From positions 27,853-91,852 of the forward strand of contig WPIF01000010.1 in the NCBI GenBank assembly GCA_009773185.1: a stretch of 64,000 nt of DNA. The letters are read 5' to 3'. The position numbers and the translations under genes were made by a program. Below the pieces are notes generated by a model. That model did no database searches, was not told the DNA's origin, and saw only the letters and a program-made list of their open reading frames with translations. Below are positions 18,662 through 34,615 of the stretch, piece by piece; position 1 is the first letter of the stretch; each line of letters begins with the position of its first letter. The DNA is from Nitrospirota bacterium. Lineage in GTDB: Bacteria; Nitrospirota; Thermodesulfovibrionia; Thermodesulfovibrionales; UBA1546.

Positions 18662-20050
18662 TTATCCGGATAAATACTGGTTTATCGTTTTATCAATCCT
18701 GTCCATATCTATAGGTTTATCCCGCACCTCAGTCCTGTTGGCTATGTGCCTCAGGGTTGTTTCCAGGAATATCCTGAAATTGTGTATCTTTTCCCTGAGC
18801 CTGTTAACCTCTCCTGCAACAACCTGTTCTTTTTTAAATGATAGCACTTCTTTGAAAAAAGAGACAAACTCTTCATAATCTTCATATCTCAGAAGCCTGA
18901 AGGTAAAACTCTCAAAATACATCATGAAATTTCTTAATGGCCCAAAAATACGCACGCGTTCTTCCTGTTTGTTTGATTTTTCCGTAAGAAGGGTCAGGAA
19001 CTTGTGGAGCACCAGGATGTCTTCTCTCAGTCTCAGGGATTGCTCGGTTTTTGCGATAAAGCTTATAAAAATATCTTCGCCTGTCAATCCGGGTTTATAG
19101 AACTGGGCTATCTGCACAATGCTCTGTTCTGCGAGGTTTTTAAGTATCCCGTGGCTGTTTTCTATCCTCCCGCGAAAATATCTGGGGGCCTTTTTCTTTA
19201 ATATCTCCTTTAATTCCTGGAGATATACCCTTTTGGTTTCCATCGAGAATTGATAGGAGAGCGACTGGATAAGCATCTTCAGGTCAGGCTGCGTGATTTT
19301 TGGTATAATCTTTTCCGTGTAATTCTTGAACATGCTTATCTCTGAACGGTTGAGCATGAGTATTATCAGCGATGTGTTGAGTGAGATGGTCCTCTGGGTT
19401 GTGATATCTATGTGCTTCAGGTATCTCAGTAACCTGAGGAGATATATCAGTATCAGGGATATGTATTTTTTTGTGTCTTTGTCCCTGATATTTTTGACTA
19501 TATCCGATATCTCCTGGTTTTCTATTATGTCGAATTCAGGATTTATATCTTTTTTAAAAGGGTTGAAATAATTGTTTTCTCTTATCTCTTTGCTCAGTAT
19601 CTGCCCTATATTCATGTAACTGAGATAAGTTATATCGCCTGATTTCAGGAGGTCGGTGACAAGGCCTTTCAGGTTAACAAAGGAATCATAAAGCAGGAAG
19701 ACGGCCTTTTCCGGGGTGTCCTGCTTATAAAGTTCTTCCCTGAAGATGTCCCTGTTGCGGTCCGTAAGGAACTTGGTCTCGGCAAATTTCTGAAACCAGT
19801 AAGAATTTTTTTTGCTCTCAGGGATTATGACCTCGAGTATGCTGAGTGTCCTTAAAATTAAATCCCTGACTGCCGAGAGTTCATCAAAGAAATTGCTTTC
19901 CGAAAGAGTTTCTTTTGCCGAGGGGAGGTTTTCGATAATGAAGAACCTGTCCACTGCCCGGAGCAGCACATCGAGCTCCGAGAACAGTTCCCTGTGTGTT
20001 TCTTTTGAAACCGCAATCCAGTCCTTTGGCTCTTTCTTCTGTATCACCAC
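18662..20050 (-). CDS. Hypothetical helical protein
   Basis: 462-aa ORF directly upstream of eno on the same strand; no family recognised. Confidence 0.6.
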   Translation of the reverse strand: MVIQKKEPKDWIAVSKETHRELFSELDVLLRAVDRFFIIENLPSAKETLSESNFFDELSAVRDLILRTLSILEVIIPESKKNSYWFQKFAETKFLTDRNRDIFREELYKQDTPEKAVFLLYDSFVNLKGLVTDLLKSGDITYLSYMNIGQILSKEIRENNYFNPFKKDINPEFDIIENQEISDIVKNIRDKDTKKYISLILIYLLRLLRYLKHIDITTQRTISLNTSLIILMLNRSEISMFKNYTEKIIPKITQPDLKMLIQSLSYQFSMETKRVYLQELKEILKKKAPRYFRGRIENSHGILKNLAEQSIVQIAQFYKPGLTGEDIFISFIAKTEQSLRLREDILVLHKFLTLLTEKSNKQEERVRIFGPLRNFMMYFESFTFRLLRYEDYEEFVSFFKEVLSFKKEQVVAGEVNRLREKIHNFRIFLETTLRHIANRTEVRDKPIDMDRIDKTINQYLSG

Positions 20051-20120
20051 TGAATATCATAATTGAACAGAGTTAGAGTATGCAAGGCTTGGATGCTAAA
20101 AAATATAGTTGCCTTCTTTT

Positions 20121-21602
20121 TTATCTCATTGCCAATAATTTCTCCGCCGGTATCTCCTTGCCGGATTCAGTGATGTAAACTACTTCTGAATCACCGCCTA
20201 TCTTTGCAGTAACCCTGACCTTCTCCACTTTCTCTCCTTCGGCATAGATAGGGCCGGTGTTTGACGCCGTTATTGTGAATGTCGAAGATACAATCACCTG
20301 AGAAGGATAGCCCACCGGAAGATTTATCTGGACAGAGCCGGAAGAAGAGGCATTTGTGCCGCTCAACGTTCCGGAGGCGCTGACAGCGCTGCCCACTGCC
20401 GGCAATGCCTTTACTGTTATAGCAGTATTCACAGGAATATTAGTTGCTGTTACAACCACTGCTATCGGATTATTCGTAGTAGATGGAAGATAAACATCAG
20501 GCGTATCAAACTTGCCCTGCGGCGCTGGAGGAACACTCACACCGCCTACGGATGTTATGGCAAGACCCGGCATATTCGCAGGCCGCACAAAAGTAGGATA
20601 ATAAGCTGAACTATACACAGGATTCGAACTGCCGGTAAAAGCAAAAATCCAGGCCTCAAGGCGTATAAGGCCAGAAGCGCCGCTGATGTTCTGCCGCCCG
20701 CAGGGGCCGATACCGTCGCTGCCTCCAACTGCTCTGATGGAACCATTGCCTGCAATGGTGTCAGCCATGAGTTTTATACCGCCGCCTGCGCCTCCTCCTC
20801 CTCCGCCTCCATATGCACGAGTCATTTGAAAGTTTCCGCCATTTCCGCCGGCTCCGCCATATGCAGTAATACTCCCATTTATTGTTATAGTTCCGGACGA
20901 GGCAATAAGTATAGCGCCACCGCCTCCACCGCCGGCTCCGCCGCTATAAGAATCTGTGCCTCCCCCACCTGCTCCGCCGGAACCCCCTATGAGGGATAAA
21001 AGCCTTGCATTGCCATAAGCAGAGCCCCCTGAACCGGGTGATGCAACATAGCAAAAAGAAGGATTTCCTTGGAGACCTTGGCTGCCAGCGCCGCCAAAAC
21101 CACCACCCCCTCCGTATCCGCCGCCAGAAACGTAAGATATTGGTGAACCTCCGCTTCCGCTGCCCGGGCCTTCTCCTCTGCGGCCGTCCTGATAAACAAT
21201 TCCGCCCAGCCCTCCATCAAACCCGCCGGGACCGCCTGTGCCAGGAGTGAAATAATCAGCGCCTCCGCTCTTTCCATCTACGCTGATAGCTCCGGCAATG
21301 GTCACATCCCCTGTAGCAAGGATAGTGACCGGGGTATTTTTAGTATTTTTTGTGAATGAGACAGCCACCCCTACAGGGATAGTTACGGTTCTGAAATTAA
21401 AGACTCCGCTTTCAGGTATCTGAAGAATTGTGTTTGCTGTCGGCGCAAAATCTCCGTCAGCTCCGGTGCTGCCGCTAACAAAGTTTCCTGCAACAGCATT
21501 GCCCCAAAACAGCAACAAATAAATTGATGTAAATAAAAATATCTTTCTCATCAAAGCCCTCCCTTGCCTGGTAACATTTCTGCTTTTAAATTCGTATCCC
21601 AT
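20121..21602 (-). CDS. Secreted glycine-rich repeat protein
   Basis: Signal peptide-like N-terminus, long GGxGGxGG tract, C-terminal beta-rich region. Confidence 0.75.
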   Translation of the reverse strand: MGYEFKSRNVTRQGRALMRKIFLFTSIYLLLFWGNAVAGNFVSGSTGADGDFAPTANTILQIPESGVFNFRTVTIPVGVAVSFTKNTKNTPVTILATGDVTIAGAISVDGKSGGADYFTPGTGGPGGFDGGLGGIVYQDGRRGEGPGSGSGGSPISYVSGGGYGGGGGFGGAGSQGLQGNPSFCYVASPGSGGSAYGNARLLSLIGGSGGAGGGGTDSYSGGAGGGGGGAILIASSGTITINGSITAYGGAGGNGGNFQMTRAYGGGGGGGAGGGIKLMADTIAGNGSIRAVGGSDGIGPCGRQNISGASGLIRLEAWIFAFTGSSNPVYSSAYYPTFVRPANMPGLAITSVGGVSVPPAPQGKFDTPDVYLPSTTNNPIAVVVTATNIPVNTAITVKALPAVGSAVSASGTLSGTNASSSGSVQINLPVGYPSQVIVSSTFTITASNTGPIYAEGEKVEKVRVTAKIGGDSEVVYITESGKEIPAEKLLAMR

Positions 21603-21619
21603 AAATTTCTCCTTGATTT

Positions 21620-22663
21620 TTACTGTGGACTTATTTCAGCGCTTACAGGCGCTGAAATAGTTGTTGCATCCATTGATAACGGCTCTTCTTTATAAACGCT
21701 TACCGGAGGTCCCGATTCAACGGCATCCATTGATAACGGTTCTTCTTTGTAAACGCTTACCGGAGGTCCTGATTCAACTGCATCCACTGATAATGCTAGT
21801 TCCATATATGCGCTCACAGGCGCTGAAATAGTCGCCGCATCCACTGTTGAGGATTCCATATAAACACTGACCGGCGCACCTGAGGTTGCTACATCTCCTG
21901 AAAGAGGAGGCGTAACAAAGACTGTTCCAATAACGCCGCCGACGGCAACAATTCCTGTGCCCTGGCTTAAGGCCCTGACTGTGAATGTCCCGTTTCCGCC
22001 GGAAGGTATTATGATGGATTGAGACGCCTCTATAACATCGGGGGTTTCATTGATTATGGCTAAATTTAAATCCCTCGATGCAGACGGCGTTATGCCTGCT
22101 GAAATGGTTACTGTTTCCCCTGTGAGAAGATATGCTGCGCCGGGCTCTAATATCAGCTTATAAACAATTATAGGTATGCTCGCAGAGCCGTAAAAGGTTG
22201 TTACATTTATATTCGCCTGTCCTAAAGGAGCGCCCCATGAAATTGTCAGCGATGCCGTTATTGTCGAATCAGTCGCTGAAATATTGCTTATGCTTATTCC
22301 TGCATTGTCTGATGTAATTGACTGTGTTGTAAAAAGATTTGCTCCTGTGATTGTTACATCTATAGTTGAGTTCAAAAAGACGATGTCAGGATTGATGCTG
22401 TTAAGAGCAGGAGGGTTCTGGCTGATTGTATGTGTTGTAATCGAGATCAGATTCCCCACTCCATCATAGTTATATGTCGCCACCTCGCCTGTCTCCGAGA
22501 TAGTCTTTATCAGCCTCCCGGTATCGTCATAGATGTAGTTGCCGTCGGAGGCAAAAGAAAGAGAGGGTATGAGAAGCAACAGGCAGATAACCAGCAAATA
22601 GGCGATGAGCCTACGCAGGAAGATTATTGCTTGAATTTTATTTATGTCTCTCTGGCGCATCAT
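21620..22663 (-). CDS. Secreted Rhs-module protein: leader, two YD repeats, IPT/TIG-like region and 19-aa C-terminal tandem repeats
   Basis: MMRQRDINKIQAIIFLRRLIAYLLVICLLLLIPSLSFA signal peptide; YIYDDTGRLIKTISETGEVATYNYDGVGNLISI; C-terminal PVSVYKEEPLSMDAVESGP repeats. Confidence 0.75.
   Translation of the reverse strand: MMRQRDINKIQAIIFLRRLIAYLLVICLLLLIPSLSFASDGNYIYDDTGRLIKTISETGEVATYNYDGVGNLISITTHTISQNPPALNSINPDIVFLNSTIDVTITGANLFTTQSITSDNAGISISNISATDSTITASLTISWGAPLGQANINVTTFYGSASIPIIVYKLILEPGAAYLLTGETVTISAGITPSASRDLNLAIINETPDVIEASQSIIIPSGGNGTFTVRALSQGTGIVAVGGVIGTVFVTPPLSGDVATSGAPVSVYMESSTVDAATISAPVSAYMELALSVDAVESGPPVSVYKEEPLSMDAVESGPPVSVYKEEPLSMDATTISAPVSAEISPQ
21667..21894 (-). repeat. 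57-bp (19-aa) in-frame tandem repeat, about four copies
   Basis: CATCCA(T/C)TGATAA... blocks begin at 21667, 21724, 21781 and 21838: exact 57-nt period. Confidence 0.9.
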
Positions 22664-22724
22664 TTTTCTCTTTTAAAGTAGCCTGTCCCCTTTTCTCTGA
22701 TAAATGATTTTAAATGTTTGGCCC

Positions 22725-23117
22725 TCAAGTTTGCATCTTATGATCAAGAATTATTTTAATTATGATGCCATCTATGATTAAAGAAGCAATTAAAAGCTTC
22801 GGTGAAAAATGTGGAATTTCCATATGAAAATAAAATCGCAATATCATTAATGAAGATATGCCCACTAGGCCAATAGCTATAAAAACGCGATAAAACAAAA
22901 TCTTGATATTGTCAGATGTTTTCTTCAGCAGGATGACAAGAGTTATAAACAATCCGATAGCATTGAGAAATGCGATAGAAATATCAAACAAGTACCACTT
23001 TATTCCTGATAAATAGAAATAACGAACTATCAAATAACCTGATGCAAATGTTGATATTAATCCCCCCAGTAAATAAAGCAATATTGCAAAAAAAAGGATA
23101 TTTATTTTCTTTGTCAT
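22725..23117 (-). CDS. Small multi-TM protein, candidate immunity-type ORF in the Rhs array
   Basis: 130 aa with about four hydrophobic helices; overlaps the upstream leader-ORF end. Confidence 0.5.
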   Translation of the reverse strand: MTKKINILFFAILLYLLGGLISTFASGYLIVRYFYLSGIKWYLFDISIAFLNAIGLFITLVILLKKTSDNIKILFYRVFIAIGLVGISSLMILRFYFHMEIPHFSPKLLIASLIIDGIIIKIILDHKMQT

Positions 23118-23401
23118 TACCTCCCTCCTACAGCTACGGGATATGCTGATGATGGCGGTGGTCCATACGGTGGAAGAACGACCGGATGGGGCTCATGAGG
23201 TTCTGGCAGATGCGGGTGTGTTGGTGGAATATTTGATTTATGACATATTGCTGGCTGTATTGGATGGTGAGGCTCCTCGGGATGTGCTGCGACTGTCATT
23301 TCTTTGATCCTCGTGAGATATTTCAAAACCAGTAAATAGGCAATAATCTTCCTCAGCAGTAAGATTTGCTTGAGCTGTCTTATGTCTTTATAACTCTGCA
23401 T
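23117..23401 (-). CDS. Leader-bearing short ORF with Pro/His-rich tail (degenerate Rhs module)
   Basis: MQSYKDIRQLKQILLLRKIIAYLLVLKYLTRIKEMT... matches the leader of the 24461-26392 ORF. Confidence 0.55.
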   Translation of the reverse strand: MQSYKDIRQLKQILLLRKIIAYLLVLKYLTRIKEMTVAAHPEEPHHPIQPAICHKSNIPPTHPHLPEPHEPHPVVLPPYGPPPSSAYPVAVGGR

Positions 23402-23474
23402 TTCATCAGCTCCGGTAAAGTGTATTCTTTAGGTTTGACCCCTTATCTTTCCCCTTGCTTCCTAGGTTTAAGCC

Positions 23475-23927
23475 TCATTCATCCTTCTTCTTAGGGAAAA
23501 GAGCAAACCATTTCCCAACCATATAAAAGGGAATCGAATATAGAAATAGGGCTACCAAAAGTGCATATCCATTAAGATATTTAAAGCTAAAACCAGCTCC
23601 CCACAATGTCCATATAAAAACACCGACGCATACTAACAAATAAATACCAATTAAGTGTCGAATTTTTTTTGAAAAAACTGTGACAATCAATCCCAGAGTC
23701 GCAAACAAAAGAACATTTACACTGCTCGCGAGGATTACCGCATTAACCGTACCAATATTTATTTCTGTTACCGCAAGCATCTGCGAAGGCCAAAAAGAAA
23801 ATAGTAAATCATTGATAAAATCATAAATCGAATCAGACATGCTAAAAATATATGCTATACCCAAAATTAGCGGACCCAATAGACCGGTAGCGCTGAATAC
23901 AATAACTGTTTTTAGTGCTCTCTTCAT
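23475..23927 (-). CDS. Small multi-TM protein, candidate immunity-type ORF
   Basis: 150 aa, about four hydrophobic helices; between Rhs modules. Confidence 0.5.
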   Translation of the reverse strand: MKRALKTVIVFSATGLLGPLILGIAYIFSMSDSIYDFINDLLFSFWPSQMLAVTEINIGTVNAVILASSVNVLLFATLGLIVTVFSKKIRHLIGIYLLVCVGVFIWTLWGAGFSFKYLNGYALLVALFLYSIPFYMVGKWFALFPKKKDE

Positions 23928-24102
23928 TTTATAAATTTACCCGGTAAATTGTTAAAAAACGGCTTTAGAATAGAATATAGGGACACTTCCCATATTATTT
24001 TCCTTCTGCATTGTCATCTTTCCCTTTTAATACAACCGTCCCTTTTCTGTTTTTTTGTTCCTTTTCTTTTTCGCAATGCAAGCCCCGCCATTTTTGTTCT
24101 TT

Positions 24103-24456
24103 CTATAATTTGGGCAGCAAGGCAGCAATGATCAAAAAACAAATAAACGATATTACGAAAGATATAAAAAATTGTGTGGCTTTTTTCTTATAGTATTCAA
24201 CTTTCTTATCGTTATAAGTTTCAGTGGTTTTAAAAATAGATATAATCAAGTATATTGAACCAACAGGCCATCTTACCCACTCCCCAGCGCCGTCAACTAA
24301 TGGATCTCGTTTCATTAGGCTCCACCATTCTTCCTTATGCGCAGTTTTCATATATTTGTAATACTTTCGATAGTAACCATAGAAGAATAAAAAACTGCAC
24401 AACAGTATTAACATTATCAATAACATGATAGATAATTTAATAATTTCATTTAGCAT
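24103..24456 (-). CDS. Small membrane protein immediately downstream of the orphan Rhs tip, candidate immunity protein
   Basis: Start chosen at MLNEIIKLS, just after the Rhs stop; multiple hydrophobic segments. Confidence 0.55.
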   Translation of the reverse strand: MLNEIIKLSIMLLIMLILLCSFLFFYGYYRKYYKYMKTAHKEEWWSLMKRDPLVDGAGEWVRWPVGSIYLIISIFKTTETYNDKKVEYYKKKATQFFISFVISFICFLIIAALLPKL

Positions 24457-24460
24457 TGAT

Positions 24461-26392
24461 TTACCACCAATCCCCTCCGCCAAGAGTCCATGTATTACTG
24501 CCTCCGACAATAGCACCAATATAGCCACCTGGCAATGAAGGGCCTACAGTTATGCCACCGCCAGTAACATTGCCACCCGGACTTCTATATCCTAAAACTG
24601 AAAAAGCACCTATCCCCATACGTCCCACATTCCCAAATACTCCTCCTAGTTGTTTCACATTGCAAGTATTGTGTCCACTTATATGGACTCCTCCGGTTAA
24701 ACCATAAACCGACGCAGCAGCTCCACCACCTAAAACTGCAGTTATAGAAGATGACCACCCTGAATGCCAAGGCTTGCTTGGATCATGTGAAAAGTTACCA
24801 TAAATACCAGCTGTACCACCGAACCCCAATAAAGCACCTGAACCTTCAAATCCAACAGTTATTCCTGCTAACCCAAAGGGGTCTACATAAGTTACAGGCG
24901 AATTTGCGGTGTACGAAAATTTATTAATTCCCCCCAATAACCCTGTGGGGTCTTCTGAAATAAACCTTTCGCCAAATTTTGTTCTTAACCGATAGTGATA
25001 ATACCCATTCCCATCATTCTCTCTTCCCGTGTATTGGAAAGGATTGTGTATTGAAGGATTTGATATTTGAGTGTTTCCGAAAGGATCATAAAAATATTCG
25101 TTAGCGATGTTTCTTGAAGGGTCGGTTAAGGCAATAGTAGAGCCAAGAGCATCGCGCAGATAATAATAAGCCCCGTCCTGCCTGAATATTCCAAGCGTCT
25201 CATCAATATGAAGGCCACGTAGATAATTCGTTGTAACAGTCCCATCTTCTATCTCTTGCATGATATCCCAGCCGTCGTATAAAAACTTAGTGTCAGTGTT
25301 AGTGCCAGTGTCAGTATTGGAAATCGTCTTTTGAAACCTTCTGCCTAATGCATCGTATTTGAATGATGCGTTGTATGTCGGGCTGGTGATAGCCACAAGC
25401 TGATTCCTTGCATTCCACGAGTATGTTGTATCGCCTTTCTGTATGAGATTGCCGTTCTCGTCATAAATCAAATTCTCATTATTGACCTGTATCTGTTGAT
25501 TTGCCTGATTGTAAACTGCGGTCTTCGGTTCAGGCAATAAGGTTTTGTGTCCTGTGAAAGATGTCCTGTTGCCGTTTTTATCATAGCCGTATTTCAAAGA
25601 TTTCAATATGAGAGAATCAGACGAGTAGGTTATGTCGGTTAAGCGATTGGCATTGTCGTATTCATATGTGGCTATAATCCCATTCGGTAAAGTCATCGAA
25701 GTGCGTCTGCCAATAGAATCATGATTTATAGAAACAGTCTGCGTTCCTTGATTTATCTGTATCAATCTGCTGTTGGAATCATATTGATAAATTATAGGTT
25801 CCTGGCCTGCGACTGTCATAGAAGTCCTCCGGCCTAATGCATCGTAACTATATCCAATACTGCCGAGAGATGTTATTTCTTGAATCACCTTATCGGCTAT
25901 GCTTCCCCCGCAGCCCAGATTACAACCGTTATTTGAATACACATATTGAATGGGGCTAGATGCAGAATCGTTAATGTAATTCAGTCTTCCGATTGCATCG
26001 TATGCGTAGCTTGTATAGGAACTGTCATTATAGGCAGTCTTTATTATCCTGCTCAATAAGTCATAAGTAAAATTCGTCGTCTGGCCTTTTCTGTCTTTAG
26101 CCAAAACAAGATTATCCATCTTGTCATACGCATACGTTTCCATTTTCCCCAATTGATCAATCATCTTCTTTGCTCTATCTCTTTCATCATATTCATAGCT
26201 AATCACCTGATTCTTAGCGTCTGTAACAGAAAGCAGATTCCCATTCTTGTCATAACTGAATTTTGTCTTGCCGCTTAAAGCATCTGTGATTTCGGTTATT
26301 CTGTTGAGATATTTCAAAACAAGCAGATAGGCAACAAGCCTACGCAGAAATATTATCGTTTGAATTTTATTTATGTCTCTCTGTTGCATCAT
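24461..26392 (-). CDS. Orphan Rhs/YD-repeat module with core domain and glycine-rich C-terminal tip
   Basis: Leader then YD repeats, YFYDPFGNTQ...GRENDGNGYYHYRLRTKFGERFISEDPTGLLGGINKFSYTANSPVTYVDPFGL core, then distinct tip. Confidence 0.9.
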   Translation of the reverse strand: MMQQRDINKIQTIIFLRRLVAYLLVLKYLNRITEITDALSGKTKFSYDKNGNLLSVTDAKNQVISYEYDERDRAKKMIDQLGKMETYAYDKMDNLVLAKDRKGQTTNFTYDLLSRIIKTAYNDSSYTSYAYDAIGRLNYINDSASSPIQYVYSNNGCNLGCGGSIADKVIQEITSLGSIGYSYDALGRRTSMTVAGQEPIIYQYDSNSRLIQINQGTQTVSINHDSIGRRTSMTLPNGIIATYEYDNANRLTDITYSSDSLILKSLKYGYDKNGNRTSFTGHKTLLPEPKTAVYNQANQQIQVNNENLIYDENGNLIQKGDTTYSWNARNQLVAITSPTYNASFKYDALGRRFQKTISNTDTGTNTDTKFLYDGWDIMQEIEDGTVTTNYLRGLHIDETLGIFRQDGAYYYLRDALGSTIALTDPSRNIANEYFYDPFGNTQISNPSIHNPFQYTGRENDGNGYYHYRLRTKFGERFISEDPTGLLGGINKFSYTANSPVTYVDPFGLAGITVGFEGSGALLGFGGTAGIYGNFSHDPSKPWHSGWSSSITAVLGGGAAASVYGLTGGVHISGHNTCNVKQLGGVFGNVGRMGIGAFSVLGYRSPGGNVTGGGITVGPSLPGGYIGAIVGGSNTWTLGGGDWW

Positions 26393-26810
26393 TTTTCTCT
26401 TTTAATAGAACCGTTCCCTTTTCCGTTTCCCTTTTTCTATGTTTGTCTATCATTGTTCGCAATACTTCAGCAAATGTCTTTGGATTGGCAGGCGAAATTA
26501 ATACTGTTCCAAAGAACCCTTTCTTTTTTATAAGAACCAGCCTATGAGAAAATTTACCCCAAAATATTGGCCAAGGCTTACTTTTCAAAAGGGCAGTTAA
26601 TAACTGGCTTGGATTAATCTCTTGCACTTCAATAATTGAATCAAGATTAATCTTGCTTTTTATAGGAAGTAATCCTAAAAAATACCATTTCATGATGAGA
26701 TATTTTTCTTCTGTTATGTATTCAAACCTTGTCACCCGATAACCGAGGAAAGTAATGCCTATTACTAATGCAACAAAAATTATTGTAGAAATAAAATCTT
26801 CTAAGCTCAT
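26367..26810 (-). CDS. Membrane-anchored PH-like (YdbT-type) small protein, candidate immunity ORF
   Basis: N-terminal TM plus EKYLIMKWYFLGLLPIKSKINLDSIIEVQEI; follows the main Rhs gene with 4-nt overlap. Confidence 0.6.
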   Translation of the reverse strand: MSLEDFISTIIFVALVIGITFLGYRVTRFEYITEEKYLIMKWYFLGLLPIKSKINLDSIIEVQEINPSQLLTALLKSKPWPIFWGKFSHRLVLIKKKGFFGTVLISPANPKTFAEVLRTMIDKHRKRETEKGTVLLKEKNDATERHK

Positions 26811-29800
26811 CGTTTGGTAGTCCCTGTATTAGTATTGTAGCCACTTCCACTGAGACCTATGCCTGCACCTGTAAAAGGTGGACCGACAGAGAACATTCCA
26901 ATTCCATTACTGTAACTATATTGCATCGTAAATTTATAGGCGCCTATACCTACATTTAGCGAAATTGTTTTAAAGGGGCCTTTCAGTTGCGCTGCACACT
27001 TCGCATTAGTAACAAAAATACCAGCACCGATGCCAGCATACGCACCGCCAACTACATTTCCGCTATTTCCACTTGGATAGCTTGGTCCGTAGCCAGGGCC
27101 GCCTGCAAAACCGCCCCAACTTGCAAAGCCGCCGAAGTTTAAATTCTTAAAAAGTCCTTGACCAAAAAGCCCACCGCCTACTGAACCGGTCTGGCCAGCA
27201 CCGATGCCAACAAGTCCAGCTTCTGTTGATGTTGTACCCATTATTCCGATACCCCATAACCCCATCGGATCAATTCTGTTGACGGGGTTGCCGCCGACAC
27301 GTGCATACCAGTTCACATCCCCACTAGCGAACCTGAGGGGGTCTTGAGAAATATAGCGATTCAGTTCAAGGCTGTCATATCTGGCTCTTTCAAATAAAAG
27401 ACCAGTCCCGTCATTCTCACGTCCAGCGAATTGGAATGGACTATCGCTTGGCTCTCCGATAACAGATGACTCACCGAAAGGAGAATAGACATACTGAGCC
27501 TTGATAGTTCCTGTTTCATCGGTCAATGCAATTACAGAGCCCAATGCGTCTTGCTGATAATATCGAATAGTGCCGTCAGTCTTAATTCTTGCCAACGGCT
27601 CATCAATATTTAATGTCCTAATGTAATTGACTGTTACTGTTCCGCCTTCGACCTCCTGAACTATATCGAGATTATCATAAAGGTAATTGATAGTTTTCCC
27701 GTTAACTGTCCTCTCCATTCTACGACCTAATGCATCGTATTTGAAAGCAGCAGAGAGCGAAGAACAATCAGAGTTAAAACCGTTAATGCCCACGAGTTGG
27801 TTACGCACATTCCACGTGTAGTAGGTAGTCCCGCAGGAACGAGTAAGGGTTAAGAGATTTCCGTTTTCGTCATAGGTCAAAGGATAACCGTTCAGGGTCG
27901 TCATTTGATTTGCGGTATTGTATGTTGCTGTCATAGGCTGCGACATTTTTATAGGCACGTTCAAGCGAGGCGCGCTTGTGCGATTGCCGTTCTTGTCGTA
28001 GGTGTAGCCGATTTTTTCGAGAACAGCATTCAATGGATTTAAGGATTCAATATTTAAAAGTTGGCTCGCGTTGTCGTAGGAGTAATTCGTGGTAACGCCA
28101 TTAGGACGTGTGAGGGATGTCCGTCTTCCAATCGCATCATATGCAAAGTCAAAAGAAAGAGATTGCCACGCTCCGCTCGCAATGACATCGGTAAGGATAT
28201 TTGTCAATTGTCCATTCGCATTATAGCTATAATTCACAGGCTCTTGTCCCGCTACCGTCATCTTTGTTCTTCTGCCGAGCACATCATATTCATAACCAAT
28301 ATTGCCAAGAGAGGTAAGCTCTTGAATTACCTTATCAACTGCCGAACTGCCACATGCAGAGCAGCCATCATTCGAGTATGAATATTGGATCATGCCACTG
28401 TCGGTATCATTGATAGTGGATAAACGGCCTATGGCATCGTAAAAGTATTCAATAGTCTGGATTCCCGCCTGCACGGGAATGACGGTTTTTGTGAGCCTGT
28501 TGAACATGTCATAATTGAATGATGTTATCTCTCCTTTTCTATCCTTTGCAGAAATCAAGTTATCCATCTTGTCATACGAATATGTCTCAACCTTGCCAAG
28601 CTGGTCTGTCATGGTGGAGACCTTGTCTCTGACAGTGTAAGTGTAAGTGATAGTGTGAGCATTTGCATCGGTAACGGAAAGAAGGTTTCCATTCTTGTCA
28701 TAACTGAATTTTGTCTTGCCGCTTAAAGCGTCTGTGATTTCGGTTATTCGATTAGCTAAATCATAAACATACTGCGTGCTCTTGCCTTTGGCATCTATTG
28801 CCTTTATTAACCTGCCGATAAAGTCATATTGCATCTGCGCTGAGTTTCCGAGAGGGTCTGTTGTTTTTATCAAGTTTCCATAGCTGTCATACGTGAAGCT
28901 TGTGGTATTGTTCAAAGCGTCTGTTATTGAAATCGGTTGACCATAGCTGTTGTATGAAATGCTGACTGCTGATAGCTGAGGGCTGACAGCTTTTATCAAA
29001 TTCCCCTTAGCATCATAAGTCATTGTCGTTACATTCCCCAATGCATCTGTAATCTTTATCGGCTTGTTGAGGATGAGGTCATACTCATATCTCGTAACAT
29101 TCCCTGCCGGGTCTGTGGTTGTTGCAATATTTCCATTGGAATCATAAGTATAAGAGGTCTTTCTTCCCCCTTTATCCGTAACCGAAATAAGCTCATTTGT
29201 TGAGATGCGACGCTCGTATGTTGTCTGTCCTCCCTGCCCGTCTGTTGTCGAGAGCAGATATCCCTGCGAGTTGAACCTGTGGGTTATGGAGGACTTGTTC
29301 GGATATATCGCAACTGTCTGTGCTATTGTCGTTGTTGCTGTCGAACCTTGAGGAACGGATTGGCTGGTTGGAATGTTCACATAGATTATCCCGCATGTGT
29401 TTGCGGGAGCTGAATCGCCTTCACGCACAAAAGTCGGCCTGCAGGACGATGAAAGGGGCAATGTAGAATCCTGAACCCTCACAGGCGTGGCTGGCGAGAA
29501 ATAGTAGAAAAGATATTCCCCGCTATCTGCATTTACCTGCCTAAAGACCCTGCCTTGTGAATCATATTCGATTATCTCCTCTTTTATTCCTTTTGGATTG
29601 GTTATTGACGTAAGCCTTCCGCCACTATCATATGTGTATGTTGTCTTTCCCCCATCAGGGTTTGTGGTGGAGATAAGTCTGGCGCTTGAGTCATAGGTGT
29701 AGGTTACAGCCCTGCCTGATGAATCCATTACAGATGAGGTTACTGTATAGATTGAAAGACCTATTGTAATTGTCCTGTTTGTGATGTAAAGGGTTCTTCC

Positions 29801-32800
29801 TGTGCTGTCGCTTATAGCTGTTATGTTTCCGTATGAATCTCTCGATATGCTCACATAGTTTCCGGTTGCATCAGTCTGCCTTGTGAGTCTTCCATTTGTG
29901 TCGAATGTGTATGAGCTGCTGTTTTTGAATTTAAGCGTCCTTGTGTTGTCTCCGTTAAGATATGCCTTTACATTTTTTAAGGACAGATATTGGTCGTTTG
30001 TGTAGCTTCCGTCGGCATTTTTTGAAAGTATATATCTGCCTGCTTCTGGTGTTATATATGTGAAAGCGTTACCGCTTCCTTGCAAATAGTGGTCATAGTC
30101 TGTGCTCATGCCTCTCCCGAATGCGCCTATTGCTGTGTTATCTGATTTGTAGCGCCTTGATAGGCTTATCAGAGATGGAAAGGGATAGCCCATATCGCTT
30201 TCTGAATGCACCTGCATCCCGTTATACGGGTCTACTGAGTTGCCTCCTATGTTGCATGGGCCGCCGCCTTTTGGCGAGGGCTGTGCGCCTTTAGGAGAGT
30301 CCTGAGGCCTTTTTACCGGCTGGGGCCGGGATGCTCCGCAGCAGAATTTAGGAATACCGACACCCGGGTCAGGGATTATGTTCTTCCCATCGTCTGATAC
30401 AGTTCCCATCCCAAAGGTCTTCCATTGATTTGAATTCGGGTCAGGCGTTGGGGATTCGTCATAATACCAGAGGACCACCCGGTCCCCGGGCTGACCATTG
30501 AATGTATTCGGCATTTTGACAGGAATAGGCTGAGTCGGTATTCCTCCGCCGGGTTTGCCGAAATAGTACATAAAGATTTCGCTTGCATATACGCCTTCAG
30601 GAGGAGGCTTTATCGGAAGCCTGTCCATTGGCACGAGCGTTACAGAGACTTTTTCATTTGGCAGGCCGTCCCAGCCGATTATCTGAACGCCGGCAGGTAT
30701 CTTCATCTCAAAGTTCTTTATCTCAGGGTCTGTTACAATTGTGTCTTTTGTGATGTCTATAGGCGTGAAGGTCTTTGTGTTGACTTCATGGAGATAGATA
30801 AAATATGGGAGCTTATTATCAATTCCGCCTATGATTGTCACAGGAACAGGTATGCGCGAGGGATATGTGGCCTCAGGCGTGTTTGCCGTGCCTCCGTCTA
30901 TCATCAATGTCTGCTCTCCCACAGGAATATCAATGAACAGGAAATTCCCTGCCTCGTCTGTTACTGTTGTTTTGTCTCCTACTGTTAATGTTACGCCTTT
31001 AATCGGAGCAGCGTCCCTTGACCTTACAATCCTTCCGGTTATCGTTGTTGCGCCCTGAGGGATGGGATTGAGTGTTATTGATGCTGTTCTTGTTATGTCT
31101 ATTCCTTCTATGTTTGCTGTTCCTATAATTGTTAAAGCTGAGGGCTGAGAGCTTAAAGCAGAGAGCAGTTTGATGTTTAAGATTGAGGATTGATTAAGAG
31201 AGATATTTTCAGGATTAAAGGTTGCAGTAATGGGCGAATCACCCTTCGACAAGCTCAGGGTGACAAGGCTGGTGAACTGCTCAAGCCCTGTGCTTTGAAG
31301 ACTAACTATTGCTCCTGCGTTTCCATTTAACGGAATAGAGACTTCCTGAGGGCTTAAGTTTAATGCAAAGTCATTTCTTAAAAGAACTGTGAATGGTTCT
31401 GCGCTCTGTGTGCTTCCGATTGTGGTTTCAACTTTTATAGGGCCTGTTGTAGCGCCGATGGGGACGATGACCTTAATCTCATTTTGTGAAAGGCTCTGAA
31501 TTGTTGCCTGTATATTATTGAACAATACCTTTGTAGGGGTGTAGTTGAAATTGTCCCCTGTGATTGTAACGACTGTCCCTGCCCGACCTGATTTTGGGGT
31601 AAAATCTGTTATAACAGGATATGGGTCTGTAACAGTAAAATTCAGGAAGTTTGAGTTCTGGCCATCAGGAGTCCTGGCAACAACGAGGTATATCCCCTTG
31701 GTTGCAATCAATGCTGATGGGGCTATTGCATTAAGCTCTCCTGAATTAATGTAGGTTGTTGCTAAATCCTGTCCGTTGAAATTAACCGTATAACCAGGAT
31801 AGAAGTTTGAACCATAAACCTTAAGCGTAAAATCAGGGCTTCTTGCAGCGATTGTATTCGGCGATATTGATGAAAGTATCGGTATCGGGTATTTAATCGT
31901 AAATGGATAAGGCTCTGATATGCCTCCGTCAGGAGCAGGGTTTGTAACTGTAACAGGAACCGTGCTTGGCGTTGCAATAAGGCTTGACGGCACTTGCGCT
32001 TCGAGTTCTTCGTTATCCTTAAAGCTTGTCGTGAGGTTGTTTTGATTGAATTGGACGGAAGACGTTGTTATGAATTTTTTGCCTTCAACGAGCAATGAAA
32101 ACCCGGCCTCTCCTGACCTTGCCGATCTTGGAACAAGGTTCATTATCTCAGGTCGCGGATTTGGAAGCTGTAACAGGATAATCGAATTATCAGCAGCGAT
32201 TGCCGCCTGATTGGTATAGGGATTTATTGCTATATCATAAAGGTTCTTTGTGAGTTGATCGGGCTTAAGCTTATCGCTCAGAATATTTGCGGTCATAGGA
32301 GACAGGATAACAGCTGTTCCTGTTGATTGATTCACATCCGCCGCGCCTGCATTTGAAAGCTCTATCTGCTGCTCGATTATCATTGTGTCGGGATTCATTA
32401 TGTCTATACCATTAACTGCATTTGTGAGGACTATCCTGTCGGTCTGAGAATTTATCTTAAGGTCTTTTATCTTTTGCACTGTGTTTATGTTTCTCTTTAT
32501 GTTTCCCGTAGACAGGTCAAGGAAAAGGACTGTGCCGCCCTCTGATGCGCCTGTGCCGAAGTTTGAAGCCATTGCAGCGGAGACTATTATCTCATTCCTC
32601 TTTTTATCAATCTCGACATGGTTGGGTTTCATGCCGATATTCAAAGTGTAGGAAATCTGTAACGACGCCTCATTTATGACATATACTGTGTTGTTGTTCT
32701 CGCAGCCGACTGCGATAATGCCGCCTCCAACTGCTGCCGATGCCGGAGATTTGCCGATATCTACTGTTGAGAGCAGGTTTAAGTCTTTGTCAAATACATA

Positions 32801-33112
32801 AAGAGCGGCCTTTGCGTCTTTTCCGGCAGGCACATATACCCTGTCTCCGCTTACTGCAACATCGCGGGGCTTGTCCTGAAATACATAGGATGAAATGAGA
32901 GCAAGAGATTTTAAATCAACCTTGTATAAAGTCTTGTAATTCTCCGATACTGCAAAGGCTGTATTGTCCGGGGGACTTGCGGCTATGGAAGTCGGCGTGT
33001 ATTGCAGGGGGATTTCATTTATAGATGAGGGAGAATCCGAGGAAACAGATTCAGGAGATAATAAAAAGACAAAAGTCAAAAACAAATATAACAAAATATT
33101 GTTTTTGCGCAT
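26807..33112 (-). CDS. Large Sec-type secreted Rhs/YD-repeat protein: beta-propeller-like N-terminus, IPT/TIG domains, YD repeats, Rhs core and Gly-rich tip
   Basis: 2101 aa; signal peptide; YVINEASLQISYTLNIGMKPNHVEI propeller; TPKSGRAGTVVTITGDNFNYTPTKVLFNN IPT; many YDxxGR repeats; SPFQFAGRENDGTGLLFERARYDSLELNRYISQDPLRFASGDVNWYARVGGNPVNRIDPMGL. Confidence 0.95.
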   Translation of the reverse strand: MRKNNILLYLFLTFVFLLSPESVSSDSPSSINEIPLQYTPTSIAASPPDNTAFAVSENYKTLYKVDLKSLALISSYVFQDKPRDVAVSGDRVYVPAGKDAKAALYVFDKDLNLLSTVDIGKSPASAAVGGGIIAVGCENNNTVYVINEASLQISYTLNIGMKPNHVEIDKKRNEIIVSAAMASNFGTGASEGGTVLFLDLSTGNIKRNINTVQKIKDLKINSQTDRIVLTNAVNGIDIMNPDTMIIEQQIELSNAGAADVNQSTGTAVILSPMTANILSDKLKPDQLTKNLYDIAINPYTNQAAIAADNSIILLQLPNPRPEIMNLVPRSARSGEAGFSLLVEGKKFITTSSVQFNQNNLTTSFKDNEELEAQVPSSLIATPSTVPVTVTNPAPDGGISEPYPFTIKYPIPILSSISPNTIAARSPDFTLKVYGSNFYPGYTVNFNGQDLATTYINSGELNAIAPSALIATKGIYLVVARTPDGQNSNFLNFTVTDPYPVITDFTPKSGRAGTVVTITGDNFNYTPTKVLFNNIQATIQSLSQNEIKVIVPIGATTGPIKVETTIGSTQSAEPFTVLLRNDFALNLSPQEVSIPLNGNAGAIVSLQSTGLEQFTSLVTLSLSKGDSPITATFNPENISLNQSSILNIKLLSALSSQPSALTIIGTANIEGIDITRTASITLNPIPQGATTITGRIVRSRDAAPIKGVTLTVGDKTTVTDEAGNFLFIDIPVGEQTLMIDGGTANTPEATYPSRIPVPVTIIGGIDNKLPYFIYLHEVNTKTFTPIDITKDTIVTDPEIKNFEMKIPAGVQIIGWDGLPNEKVSVTLVPMDRLPIKPPPEGVYASEIFMYYFGKPGGGIPTQPIPVKMPNTFNGQPGDRVVLWYYDESPTPDPNSNQWKTFGMGTVSDDGKNIIPDPGVGIPKFCCGASRPQPVKRPQDSPKGAQPSPKGGGPCNIGGNSVDPYNGMQVHSESDMGYPFPSLISLSRRYKSDNTAIGAFGRGMSTDYDHYLQGSGNAFTYITPEAGRYILSKNADGSYTNDQYLSLKNVKAYLNGDNTRTLKFKNSSSYTFDTNGRLTRQTDATGNYVSISRDSYGNITAISDSTGRTLYITNRTITIGLSIYTVTSSVMDSSGRAVTYTYDSSARLISTTNPDGGKTTYTYDSGGRLTSITNPKGIKEEIIEYDSQGRVFRQVNADSGEYLFYYFSPATPVRVQDSTLPLSSSCRPTFVREGDSAPANTCGIIYVNIPTSQSVPQGSTATTTIAQTVAIYPNKSSITHRFNSQGYLLSTTDGQGGQTTYERRISTNELISVTDKGGRKTSYTYDSNGNIATTTDPAGNVTRYEYDLILNKPIKITDALGNVTTMTYDAKGNLIKAVSPQLSAVSISYNSYGQPISITDALNNTTSFTYDSYGNLIKTTDPLGNSAQMQYDFIGRLIKAIDAKGKSTQYVYDLANRITEITDALSGKTKFSYDKNGNLLSVTDANAHTITYTYTVRDKVSTMTDQLGKVETYSYDKMDNLISAKDRKGEITSFNYDMFNRLTKTVIPVQAGIQTIEYFYDAIGRLSTINDTDSGMIQYSYSNDGCSACGSSAVDKVIQELTSLGNIGYEYDVLGRRTKMTVAGQEPVNYSYNANGQLTNILTDVIASGAWQSLSFDFAYDAIGRRTSLTRPNGVTTNYSYDNASQLLNIESLNPLNAVLEKIGYTYDKNGNRTSAPRLNVPIKMSQPMTATYNTANQMTTLNGYPLTYDENGNLLTLTRSCGTTYYTWNVRNQLVGINGFNSDCSSLSAAFKYDALGRRMERTVNGKTINYLYDNLDIVQEVEGGTVTVNYIRTLNIDEPLARIKTDGTIRYYQQDALGSVIALTDETGTIKAQYVYSPFGESSVIGEPSDSPFQFAGRENDGTGLLFERARYDSLELNRYISQDPLRFASGDVNWYARVGGNPVNRIDPMGLWGIGIMGTTSTEAGLVGIGAGQTGSVGGGLFGQGLFKNLNFGGFASWGGFAGGPGYGPSYPSGNSGNVVGGAYAGIGAGIFVTNAKCAAQLKGPFKTISLNVGIGAYKFTMQYSYSNGIGMFSVGPPFTGAGIGLSGSGYNTNTGTTKR
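28158..28187 (-). repeat. Dispersed palindromic repeat inserted in frame in the Rhs gene (TGTCATTGCGAGCGGAGCGTGGCAATCTCT type)
   Basis: Translated VIASGAWQSL; absent from the aligned paralogous module. Confidence 0.8.
28457..28485 (-). repeat. Dispersed palindromic repeat inserted in frame (CCGTCATTCCCGTGCAGGCGGGAATCCAG type)
   Basis: ATTCCCG-CCTGCA-CGGGAAT inverted repeat; translated VIPVQAGIQ. Confidence 0.9.
31239..31264 (-). repeat. Dispersed repeat inserted in frame (GTCACCCTGAGCTTGTCGAAGGGTGA type)
   Basis: Translated VTLSLSKGD; CACCCT...AGGGTG inverted arms. Confidence 0.9.
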
Positions 33113-33229
33113 CTACCTCCCCCCTAAAAGAGGCTGATTGCTGCCTTAAGCGTATATCTTTTTTATATTACTGCTAAAAGTTTGTCAAGAAAAATTTTTA
33201 CAGATTTTTTGGAATTGTGGTAGAAAATA

Positions 33230-34615
33230 TTATTTTTTAGGCGCATGGATTGCCATGTTGTGCACATCTTCTGCGGCTTCCATCAAACCTTCTGACAGCG
33301 TAGGATGAGCGTGGATTGTTTCAGCAATATCTTTTACTGTCAGCCCGCCATGCATTGCAACTGCAAATTCATGAATCAGGTCAGAAGCGTGGGGCCCTAT
33401 AATATGCGCACCGAGTATTTTATCGGATTTTTTTTCAGCTATTATCTTTATAAAGCCGGATATCTCACCCATTGCATGGGCCTTGCCGAGCGCCCTGAAC
33501 TGAAATTCACCCGTGGTGTAATCAAGCCCTTTTTCCTTTGCCTGATGCTCTCTGAGGCCTACCGAGCCAATCTCAGGTGATGTGAAGATTGCGGCCGGCA
33601 CTACGCTGTAATCAAATTTCTTGTCTGCGCCCATAATGTTTTCCGCCGCTATAAGCCCCTGCTTTGAGGCCACATGGGCCAGGAGGATGCCTCCTGTTAC
33701 ATCACCGATGGCGTAGATATGAGGCACATTCGTCTGAAGCTTTTCATTGACAGGAATTTCTTTTCTTGGCCCTGTGGAAACCCCTGCATTTTCAAGCCCG
33801 ATGCCGTTTGTATTGAACGCCCTTCCGATGGATACCAGCACCTTTTCAGCAATCAACTCTTTCCCGTTGGAAAGGAATACATGCACTCCGTCGTCTTTAA
33901 CTTCAACCTTTTCAACCTTTATCTCGGTTATCAGTTTTATCTTTTTCTTCTTGAGTTCTTTTTCCAGAAGTTTTGACACTGCTTCGTCTTCTGTGGATAC
34001 AGCCCTCGGCAACAGTTCGACGATTGTGATTTCTGAACCGAGCTCGCTGTAAATACATGCAAACTCGCACCCGATAACACCTGCCCCTACAATTAAAAGG
34101 CTTTTGGGAATCTCCCTGAGTTCAAGCGCCTCAGTAGATGAAATTATATTTTTGCCGTCAAACGGGAAAGTCGGTATCTGCGCAGGCCTTGAACCGGTGG
34201 CTATGATAAATACATCTGCTGTTATGGTCTCCTCCGTGGAGTCTTTTAAGGTGACCTTTATTTCCTTTGAAGAGATGAAGGCGCCTTTGCCTTCCTTGAG
34301 GGTTACACCCCAGCTCTTGAATAAACCCCTTATCCCTTTAACCTGTGTGGATACAACCTTGCTTTTCCTCTCAATGATCTTCTGCATATTCGGGGATATA
34401 GCGCCTGTTGCGTCAATGCCGAAGGATTCGAGTTCTTTTGTCTTTGCATATATTTCAGATGATGCCAGCAGTGTTTTTGTGGGTATGCAGCCCCAGTTCA
34501 GGCATGTCCCGCCAACCTCGGTGCTCTCAATAACAGTTACCTCTGCCCCCAGTTGAGCAAGTTTGAGCGCTGCAACATATCCTCCGGGTCCTGCGCCAAG
34601 TATTGCAACTCTCAT
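33230..34615 (-). CDS. lpdA: Dihydrolipoyl dehydrogenase
   Basis: GGTCLNWGCIPTKTLLASSE redox motif; GGLTVKDIAETIHAHPTLSEGLMEAAED. Confidence 0.96.
   Translation of the reverse strand: MRVAILGAGPGGYVAALKLAQLGAEVTVIESTEVGGTCLNWGCIPTKTLLASSEIYAKTKELESFGIDATGAISPNMQKIIERKSKVVSTQVKGIRGLFKSWGVTLKEGKGAFISSKEIKVTLKDSTEETITADVFIIATGSRPAQIPTFPFDGKNIISSTEALELREIPKSLLIVGAGVIGCEFACIYSELGSEITIVELLPRAVSTEDEAVSKLLEKELKKKKIKLITEIKVEKVEVKDDGVHVFLSNGKELIAEKVLVSIGRAFNTNGIGLENAGVSTGPRKEIPVNEKLQTNVPHIYAIGDVTGGILLAHVASKQGLIAAENIMGADKKFDYSVVPAAIFTSPEIGSVGLREHQAKEKGLDYTTGEFQFRALGKAHAMGEISGFIKIIAEKKSDKILGAHIIGPHASDLIHEFAVAMHGGLTVKDIAETIHAHPTLSEGLMEAAEDVHNMAIHAPKK

Follow-up and report, generated by a model that had tools for sequence, protein, structure and literature searches.

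The window, by which we mean the whole 64,000-nucleotide stretch of DNA that was analysed, carries an array of Rhs-type genes on its minus strand (Table 1). An ORF check placed all of the open reading frames (ORFs) of the initial annotation on that strand, where they had been listed. The region 20,053–33,229 is firmly identified from its sequence as a polymorphic-toxin Rhs locus. The genes are closely packed: the start of the 147-aa ORF overlaps the stop of the 2101-aa Rhs gene by 4 nt (26807/26810), the 147-aa ORF in turn shares its last 26 nt with the next leader, and the stop of the 94-aa ORF overlaps the ATG of the 130-aa ORF (TAATG, at 23117). The longest ORF at the position of the 117-aa ORF has 141 residues and begins at a GTG at 24528. 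The 347-aa ORF lacks both Rhs core and tip; at its end (21666–21779), two 57-nt tandem units that are 93% identical encode SVYKEEPLSMDAVESGPPV repeats. Scans for promoters (35 versus 30.9 ± 5.0 in shuffled sequences) and terminators (9 versus 11.9) returned numbers at shuffle level, and neither an Rfam search nor PADLOC gave a usable result.

Table 1 Features of the Rhs array in the window
Feature	Position	Strand	Basis or remark
Insertion, approximate extent	20053..33229	.	between lpd (33230-34615) and 462-aa gene (18662-20050)
Full-length Rhs, 2101 aa	26807..33112	-	ORF call, Pfam, TIGR03696
Tip 1, 152 aa, glycine-rich	26807..27265	-	residues about 1950-2101 of 2101-aa Rhs
147-aa membrane/PH-like ORF, candidate immunity	26367..26810	-	ORF call, Pfam, position
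REP-like upstream sequence and leader 1 of 643-aa module	26291..26422	-	start codon at 26392
643-aa orphan Rhs module: leader, YD repeats, Rhs core, tip	24461..26392	-	
Tip 2, 137 aa, glycine-rich	24461..24874	-	C-terminus of 643-aa module
About 117-aa membrane ORF, candidate immunity to tip 2	24103..24456	-	
Degenerate copy of REP/leader-start element	23993..24046	-	72% to 26368-26421
150-aa multi-TM ORF, immunity-like, no toxin tip before it	23475..23927	-	ORF call, position
94-aa ORF: leader 2, short YD-like join (KEMTVAA), proline-rich remnant	23117..23401	-	
130-aa multi-TM ORF, immunity-like	22725..23117	-	ORF call
REP-like sequence AAGGGGACAGGCTACTT and leader 3	22589..22693	-	DNA repeat comparison
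347-aa ORF: leader extended into Sec-like signal, one YD repeat, Ig/IPT-like region, SVYKEEPLSMDA repeats	21620..22663	-	
493-aa secreted glycine-rich protein	20121..21602	-	homologues adjoin Rhs genes in relatives (L020, L063, L024)

The 2101-aa Rhs protein is composed of a Sec-like signal, TIG repeats, a CarboxypepD_reg domain, DUF6531, 13 RHS repeats, the Rhs core and a glycine-rich tip. Its YD repeats match PF05593 far beyond chance (E = 5e-80), and the Rhs-associated core TIGR03696 is found in both the 2101-aa and the 643-aa ORFs, in each of which YD repeats and core are followed by DPxG and a variable C-terminus. The Rhs/YD identity and the core bear out the initial reading of the locus as a polymorphic-toxin array in which a small membrane ORF comes after each displaced module. 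The 2101-aa protein was matched in 25 of the 61 genomes searched. Its core is 58–63% identical to those of the relatives G007 and G005, and the tips have no homologues, which is the pattern of a variable tip on a conserved core. The identity of a type VI PAAR-Rhs effector was rejected for this protein, since the N-terminal PAAR/VgrG-linked region is missing: Pfam gives no PAAR match, and the N-terminus consists of the Sec-like signal and TIG domains.

The site of the array is empty and intact in three other genomes (G001, G003 and G007; loci L125, L127 and L129), in which lpd is followed by the 462-aa gene and enolase. The spacing between lpd and the 462-aa gene is about 25–35 nt at the empty sites and 13.2 kb in the window. 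One of the three, G001, is a same-genus sister in which the flanking 462-aa gene is 98% identical. The array is an insertion, because the empty site is intact in sister genomes, and the sequence comparison indicates that the whole of it is a recent, horizontal gain. Genome G002 probably carries the insertion too, because its contig starts with the right flank of the window. No integrase or transposase was found inside the array.

The 643-aa orphan module has YD repeats of its own (PF05593, E = 2.4e-38). It is predicted to have an Rhs-type β-shell fold: in the AlphaFold2 model a β-shell extends, mostly with confidence, over residues about 40–450, the leader is not placed confidently (pLDDT about 30), and the best match of the model in the PDB, identified using Foldseek, is an Rhs core (E = 4e-25). 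The DNA encoding the core is a mosaic. Over the 30 or so codons that follow the leader, identity to the main gene of the same array is 89%; over codons about 55–100 (about 45 codons), identity to the main gene of G007 is about 80%; the remainder is mostly 45–65% identical to all sequences compared. The mosaic provides direct evidence that recombination has taken place within the YD repeats, and recombination of this kind explains how frame and phase can be preserved in leader fusions even if the join itself is not under selection.

The 643-, 94- and 347-aa ORFs share an N-terminal leader of roughly 30 residues, MMxxRDIRQLQxILLMRRLIAYLLVLKYL. The repeat is also evident in the DNA, with 83% identity over 105 nt (22589–22693 versus 26318–26422) and 75% over 69 nt (23293–23361 versus 26284–26352); in the 643- and 347-aa ORFs the common DNA begins about 30 nt before the start codon. 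A degenerate copy of the upstream part precedes the 150-aa ORF (23993–24046); the element, whole or as a remnant, is therefore present at each of the four junctions that follow immunity-type ORFs. Further copies of the leader were found on contigs C1 and C41 by a DNA search of the same genome. A protein profile detected the leader in relatives of the same family (G004, G005, G007) and of families f12 (G079, G083), f13 (G157) and f16 (G296), and a scan of named genomes in a 'Deltaproteobacteria' groundwater metagenome-assembled genome (MAG; L108). The leader-bearing relatives that have names are Nitrospirae MAGs from groundwater and sediment. In total, 21 copies were tabulated from the genome of the window, relatives in four families of the same class and the 'Deltaproteobacteria' MAG, a count that leaves out weak profile matches in G008, G010, G112, G079:C71 and G039.

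The position of the leader is also conserved. Seventeen of the 21 copies start between 26 nt inside and 107 nt past the end of the preceding ORF, defined as a same-strand ORF of at least 80 residues, which is usually a small membrane or secreted protein of immunity type. In nearly all longer copies the reading frame stays open into YD repeats or adjacent Rhs-type sequence, and the joins lie mostly at one phase of the YD repeat, between LKY and LxRIxEITD. Intact ORFs combining leader, core and tip number six in the genome of the window and related genomes. Other copies are degenerate or stubs (24013; a 58-aa ORF on C41; leader-only copies in L108 and G005e), and the leader also occurs as stand-alone ORFs of about 30 residues. 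The initial annotation had given every module its own start and leader. This holds for the 643-, 94- and 347-aa ORFs of the window and does not extend into a general rule: truncated modules in relatives have the leader, a Sec-like signal or, in about half of the cases, neither. In L121 (3105–4190; G083:C62), the leader runs in frame into the apparent start of a full-length Rhs gene bearing a Sec signal; the leader is therefore not confined to truncated modules. In L065 (6785–7129; G000:C1), the leader and the tail of a protein related to the 493-aa glycine-rich protein form an in-frame fusion (YITESGKEIPAEKL). In the 'Deltaproteobacteria' locus (L108:1081–3000), the gene for a secreted MopE-like protein that includes a C39-type peptidase domain precedes an ORF with a FIMAH domain and a leader-only ORF of 30 residues. 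The N-terminus of PilS in G112 resembles the leader (22 bits); an origin of the leader from PilS was rejected and the resemblance judged convergent, as PilS of the leader-bearing family does not share it. A search of viral contigs for the leader gave nothing usable.

That the leader is a coding sequence, conserved across families and under purifying selection, is well supported by comparison of its copies. Among 15 aligned copies read in frame 0, the median dN is 0.29, dS 1.02 and ω 0.29, with no stops, and ω is below 1 in all 85 computable pairs. The other two frames give ω of 0.78 and 1.82, with 55 and 17 stops. The start codon is kept in 14 of the 15 copies, and a column-permutation test gives p = 0.0013; these values come from 29 codons of related copies with dS near saturation. 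Leaders from outside the genome of the window were collected by a protein profile, which favours copies conserved as protein. The profile is not the sole cause of the low ω, because the four copies returned by DNA search (w643, w347, w94 and C1) give 0.21–0.32.

The displaced modules might instead be ordinary silent orphan cassettes, reserves that are used only once recombined into the main gene, with the leader as a DNA junction element marking breakpoints, that is, a REP/RAYT-type end with a hitch-hiking ORF start. The many leaderless orphans and the mosaic cores fit this view, as does a REP-like motif that precedes many leaders (AAGGGGACAGGCTACTT before leader 3). Inverted AAGGGGACAGGCTACTT ends flank a Y1 transposase in another Rhs array of the same genome, on contig C41 (L120:6160–6890, G000:C41:79659–80389); this is a REP-associated-type, IS200-like enzyme of 222 residues (PF01797, 2.3e-18). 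A palindromic MITE-like intergenic element on contig C20 (L014:1500–1630 of G000; fold z = −4.9), the ends of which (~19 bp) match the sequence upstream of leader 1, exists without a leader. However, a junction element is disfavoured by the codon-pattern conservation of the leader (ω about 0.3, no in-frame stops), by its near-invariant start codon, and by the leader bodies of w94 and G007, which are conserved though preceded by GGGGTCAAACCT instead. Classical silent orphans lack translation initiation signals, whereas the leader provides a conserved start codon and a coding sequence. Because the leader is coding, while published orphan rhs and cdiA modules are mostly without translation starts (PMC3150448, PMC3967940), expression is the better reading here, and we regard silent cassettes as unlikely.

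The initial annotation had also proposed that the modules may be independently exported, which the analysis did not support. By inspection, the only cleavable Sec-like signal among the leaders is that of the 347-aa ORF, which has no tip, with the cleavage site between LIAYLLVICLLLLIPSLSFA and SDG. The leaders of the 643- and 94-aa ORFs have no cleavage motif, LKYL replaces the rest of their hydrophobic core, and their mean hydrophobicity over 19 residues is 0.34 and 0.31, respectively, versus 0.54 in the 347-aa ORF; inspection and hydrophobicity thus give no n-h-c signal with a cleavage site for these two modules. Export of their products is not supported, because a Sec signal is seen in the 347-aa leader only. 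The description of the 347-aa ORF as leader, YD and IPT stands for the leader and a single YD repeat (PF05593, 2.3e-6); the IPT part has no Pfam IPT/TIG match. Short Rhs-core ORFs with Sec-type signal peptides of their own occur in other genomes of the order (twice in L055 and once in L064). These ORFs, the continuation of the 347-aa leader into a Sec-like signal, and the periplasmic appearance, from their own signals, of some immunity-type ORFs adjoining leader modules (L047, L067) would fit a descent of the leader from the signal peptide of a small secreted YD protein resembling the 347-aa ORF, by which truncated modules would be secreted or membrane-anchored. Such a descent is nevertheless improbable: LKYL is conserved across families and interrupts the hydrophobic core, a cleavage motif is absent, and the mean hydrophobicity of leaders over 19 residues is just 0.1–0.5.

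The toxin reading for this type of array is supported because modules of relatives carry recognizable toxin domains. In G005, the tip of a leader module (L067) matches phospholipase PLA2 just below the curated cut-off (PF00068, 5.7e-7), and that of a leaderless neighbouring module (L069) matches Tlde1 (PF10908, 2.1e-11); the tip of a G007 leader module resembles Tlde1 by eye only and has no Pfam match. The fold of tip 1 was not recognized, and its AlphaFold2 model is uninformative (pLDDT 31). For tip 2 no real homologue was found and a search of plasmids gave nothing usable; a match in G115, a formate-dehydrogenase-like protein, was discarded as spurious. A PDB sequence search with both tips gave no usable match, no catalytic motif was found in them, and homology between the two is not supported by comparison. 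The searches yielded no informative homologue for the tips or candidate immunity proteins of the window. The tips of the window may be toxic and neutralized by the adjacent ORFs.

The small membrane ORFs fit such a role by position: a candidate immunity ORF lies 3' of its tip with a start-stop overlap, and neutralization is putative. The PH-like label of the 147-aa ORF corresponds to a bPH_5 match that is below threshold (18.7 bits versus a cut-off of 22.5). Homology of the 117-aa ORF to a 110-aa ORF of G007 was considered and is not supported by comparison. The initial annotation had held that its reading would be refuted if the small ORFs were not conserved beside Rhs tips in relatives. Taken literally, this applies to two of them, since no homologue of the 147-aa or the 130-aa ORF was found among 177 genomes of the order; different ORFs recur in the slot beside the tips in relatives, and varying ORFs in one slot are what polymorphic immunity predicts. 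A surface structural or adhesin locus, with small membrane ORFs serving assembly, would suit the glycine-rich tips and 493-aa protein and the lack of a catalytic motif, but is very improbable given that PLA2 and Tlde1 domains, accompanied by small immunity-like ORFs, are found in similar arrays of relatives and that tip/ORF pairs vary among genomes, as in polymorphic toxins.

We therefore favour, at about even odds (a probability of roughly 0.5), a horizontally gained Rhs array in which displaced modules would form an expressed toxin/immunity reserve by means of a start cassette. The product of the first gene would be an Rhs shell that is secreted by the Sec route and bears a C-terminal tip; its translation would be coupled, through the start-stop overlap, to that of a candidate membrane immunity protein. 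Behind this gene would lie older tips that have been displaced, every one of them accompanied by the 3' portion of an Rhs core and by a small membrane ORF. In this lineage, a displaced module could carry a conserved start cassette, consisting of a start codon and the cationic, partly amphipathic leader of about 30 residues; the cassette would immediately follow an immunity gene and continue into the truncated core in phase with the YD repeats. Ribosomes finishing the immunity gene might restart at the leader, and the truncated Rhs protein would be a short, non-Sec shell with a tip, restrained by the product of the immunity gene that follows; the reserve would thus be expressed and not silent. 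Tips may be swapped by homologous recombination in the YD repeats, perhaps aided by the REP/RAYT-type sequence before many leaders. In a more specific version, which is less likely than not, the leader is a dedicated, previously undescribed start cassette; several families of one bacterial class would use it to have displaced Rhs fragments expressed as short-shell toxins that dock to membranes and are regulated by way of the immunity gene upstream.

The array resembles several known systems. The RAYT systems of REP-associated Y1 transposases are comparable in the terminal AAGGGGACAGGCTACTT, which also precedes leader 3, and in the transposase of the C41 array; they differ in that the window array has no transposase, and a role in cassette movement is conjectural. 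Standalone cassettes of polymorphic toxins have a constant 5' part, exchangeable 3' tips with immunity genes and an arrangement in arrays; by contrast, a conserved start leader of Rhs cassettes is not described in the parts of that account that were consulted (PMC3482391), nor was a conserved leader on Rhs orphans found in the portion of the literature that was searched. In the rhs-CT/rhsI loci of Enterobacteriaceae, including Salmonella LT2, a full-length rhs gene is likewise followed by truncated rhs-CT fragments, every one paired with a small immunity gene, with recombination in the conserved core; the orphans there usually lack translation initiation and export signals, whereas the modules of the window start with a shared, conserved leader (PMC3967940, PMC3150448). 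Internal promoters can drive the expression of Salmonella orphans, and these can function as toxin-antitoxin pairs, in which a toxin made inside the cell is bound by its immunity protein, as may be the case here; their promoters and starts lie inside the core, whereas the modules of the window have a dedicated N-terminal peptide (PMC7043789). The published accounts leave unanswered why bacteria retain toxin fragments downstream of Rhs and CDI genes (PMC3150448, PMC3967940, PMC7043789). Synthesis of the fragments would mean that they are not just silent spare parts, and a leader shared by many of them and conserved as protein offers both a natural test of this and a handle for finding and studying them.
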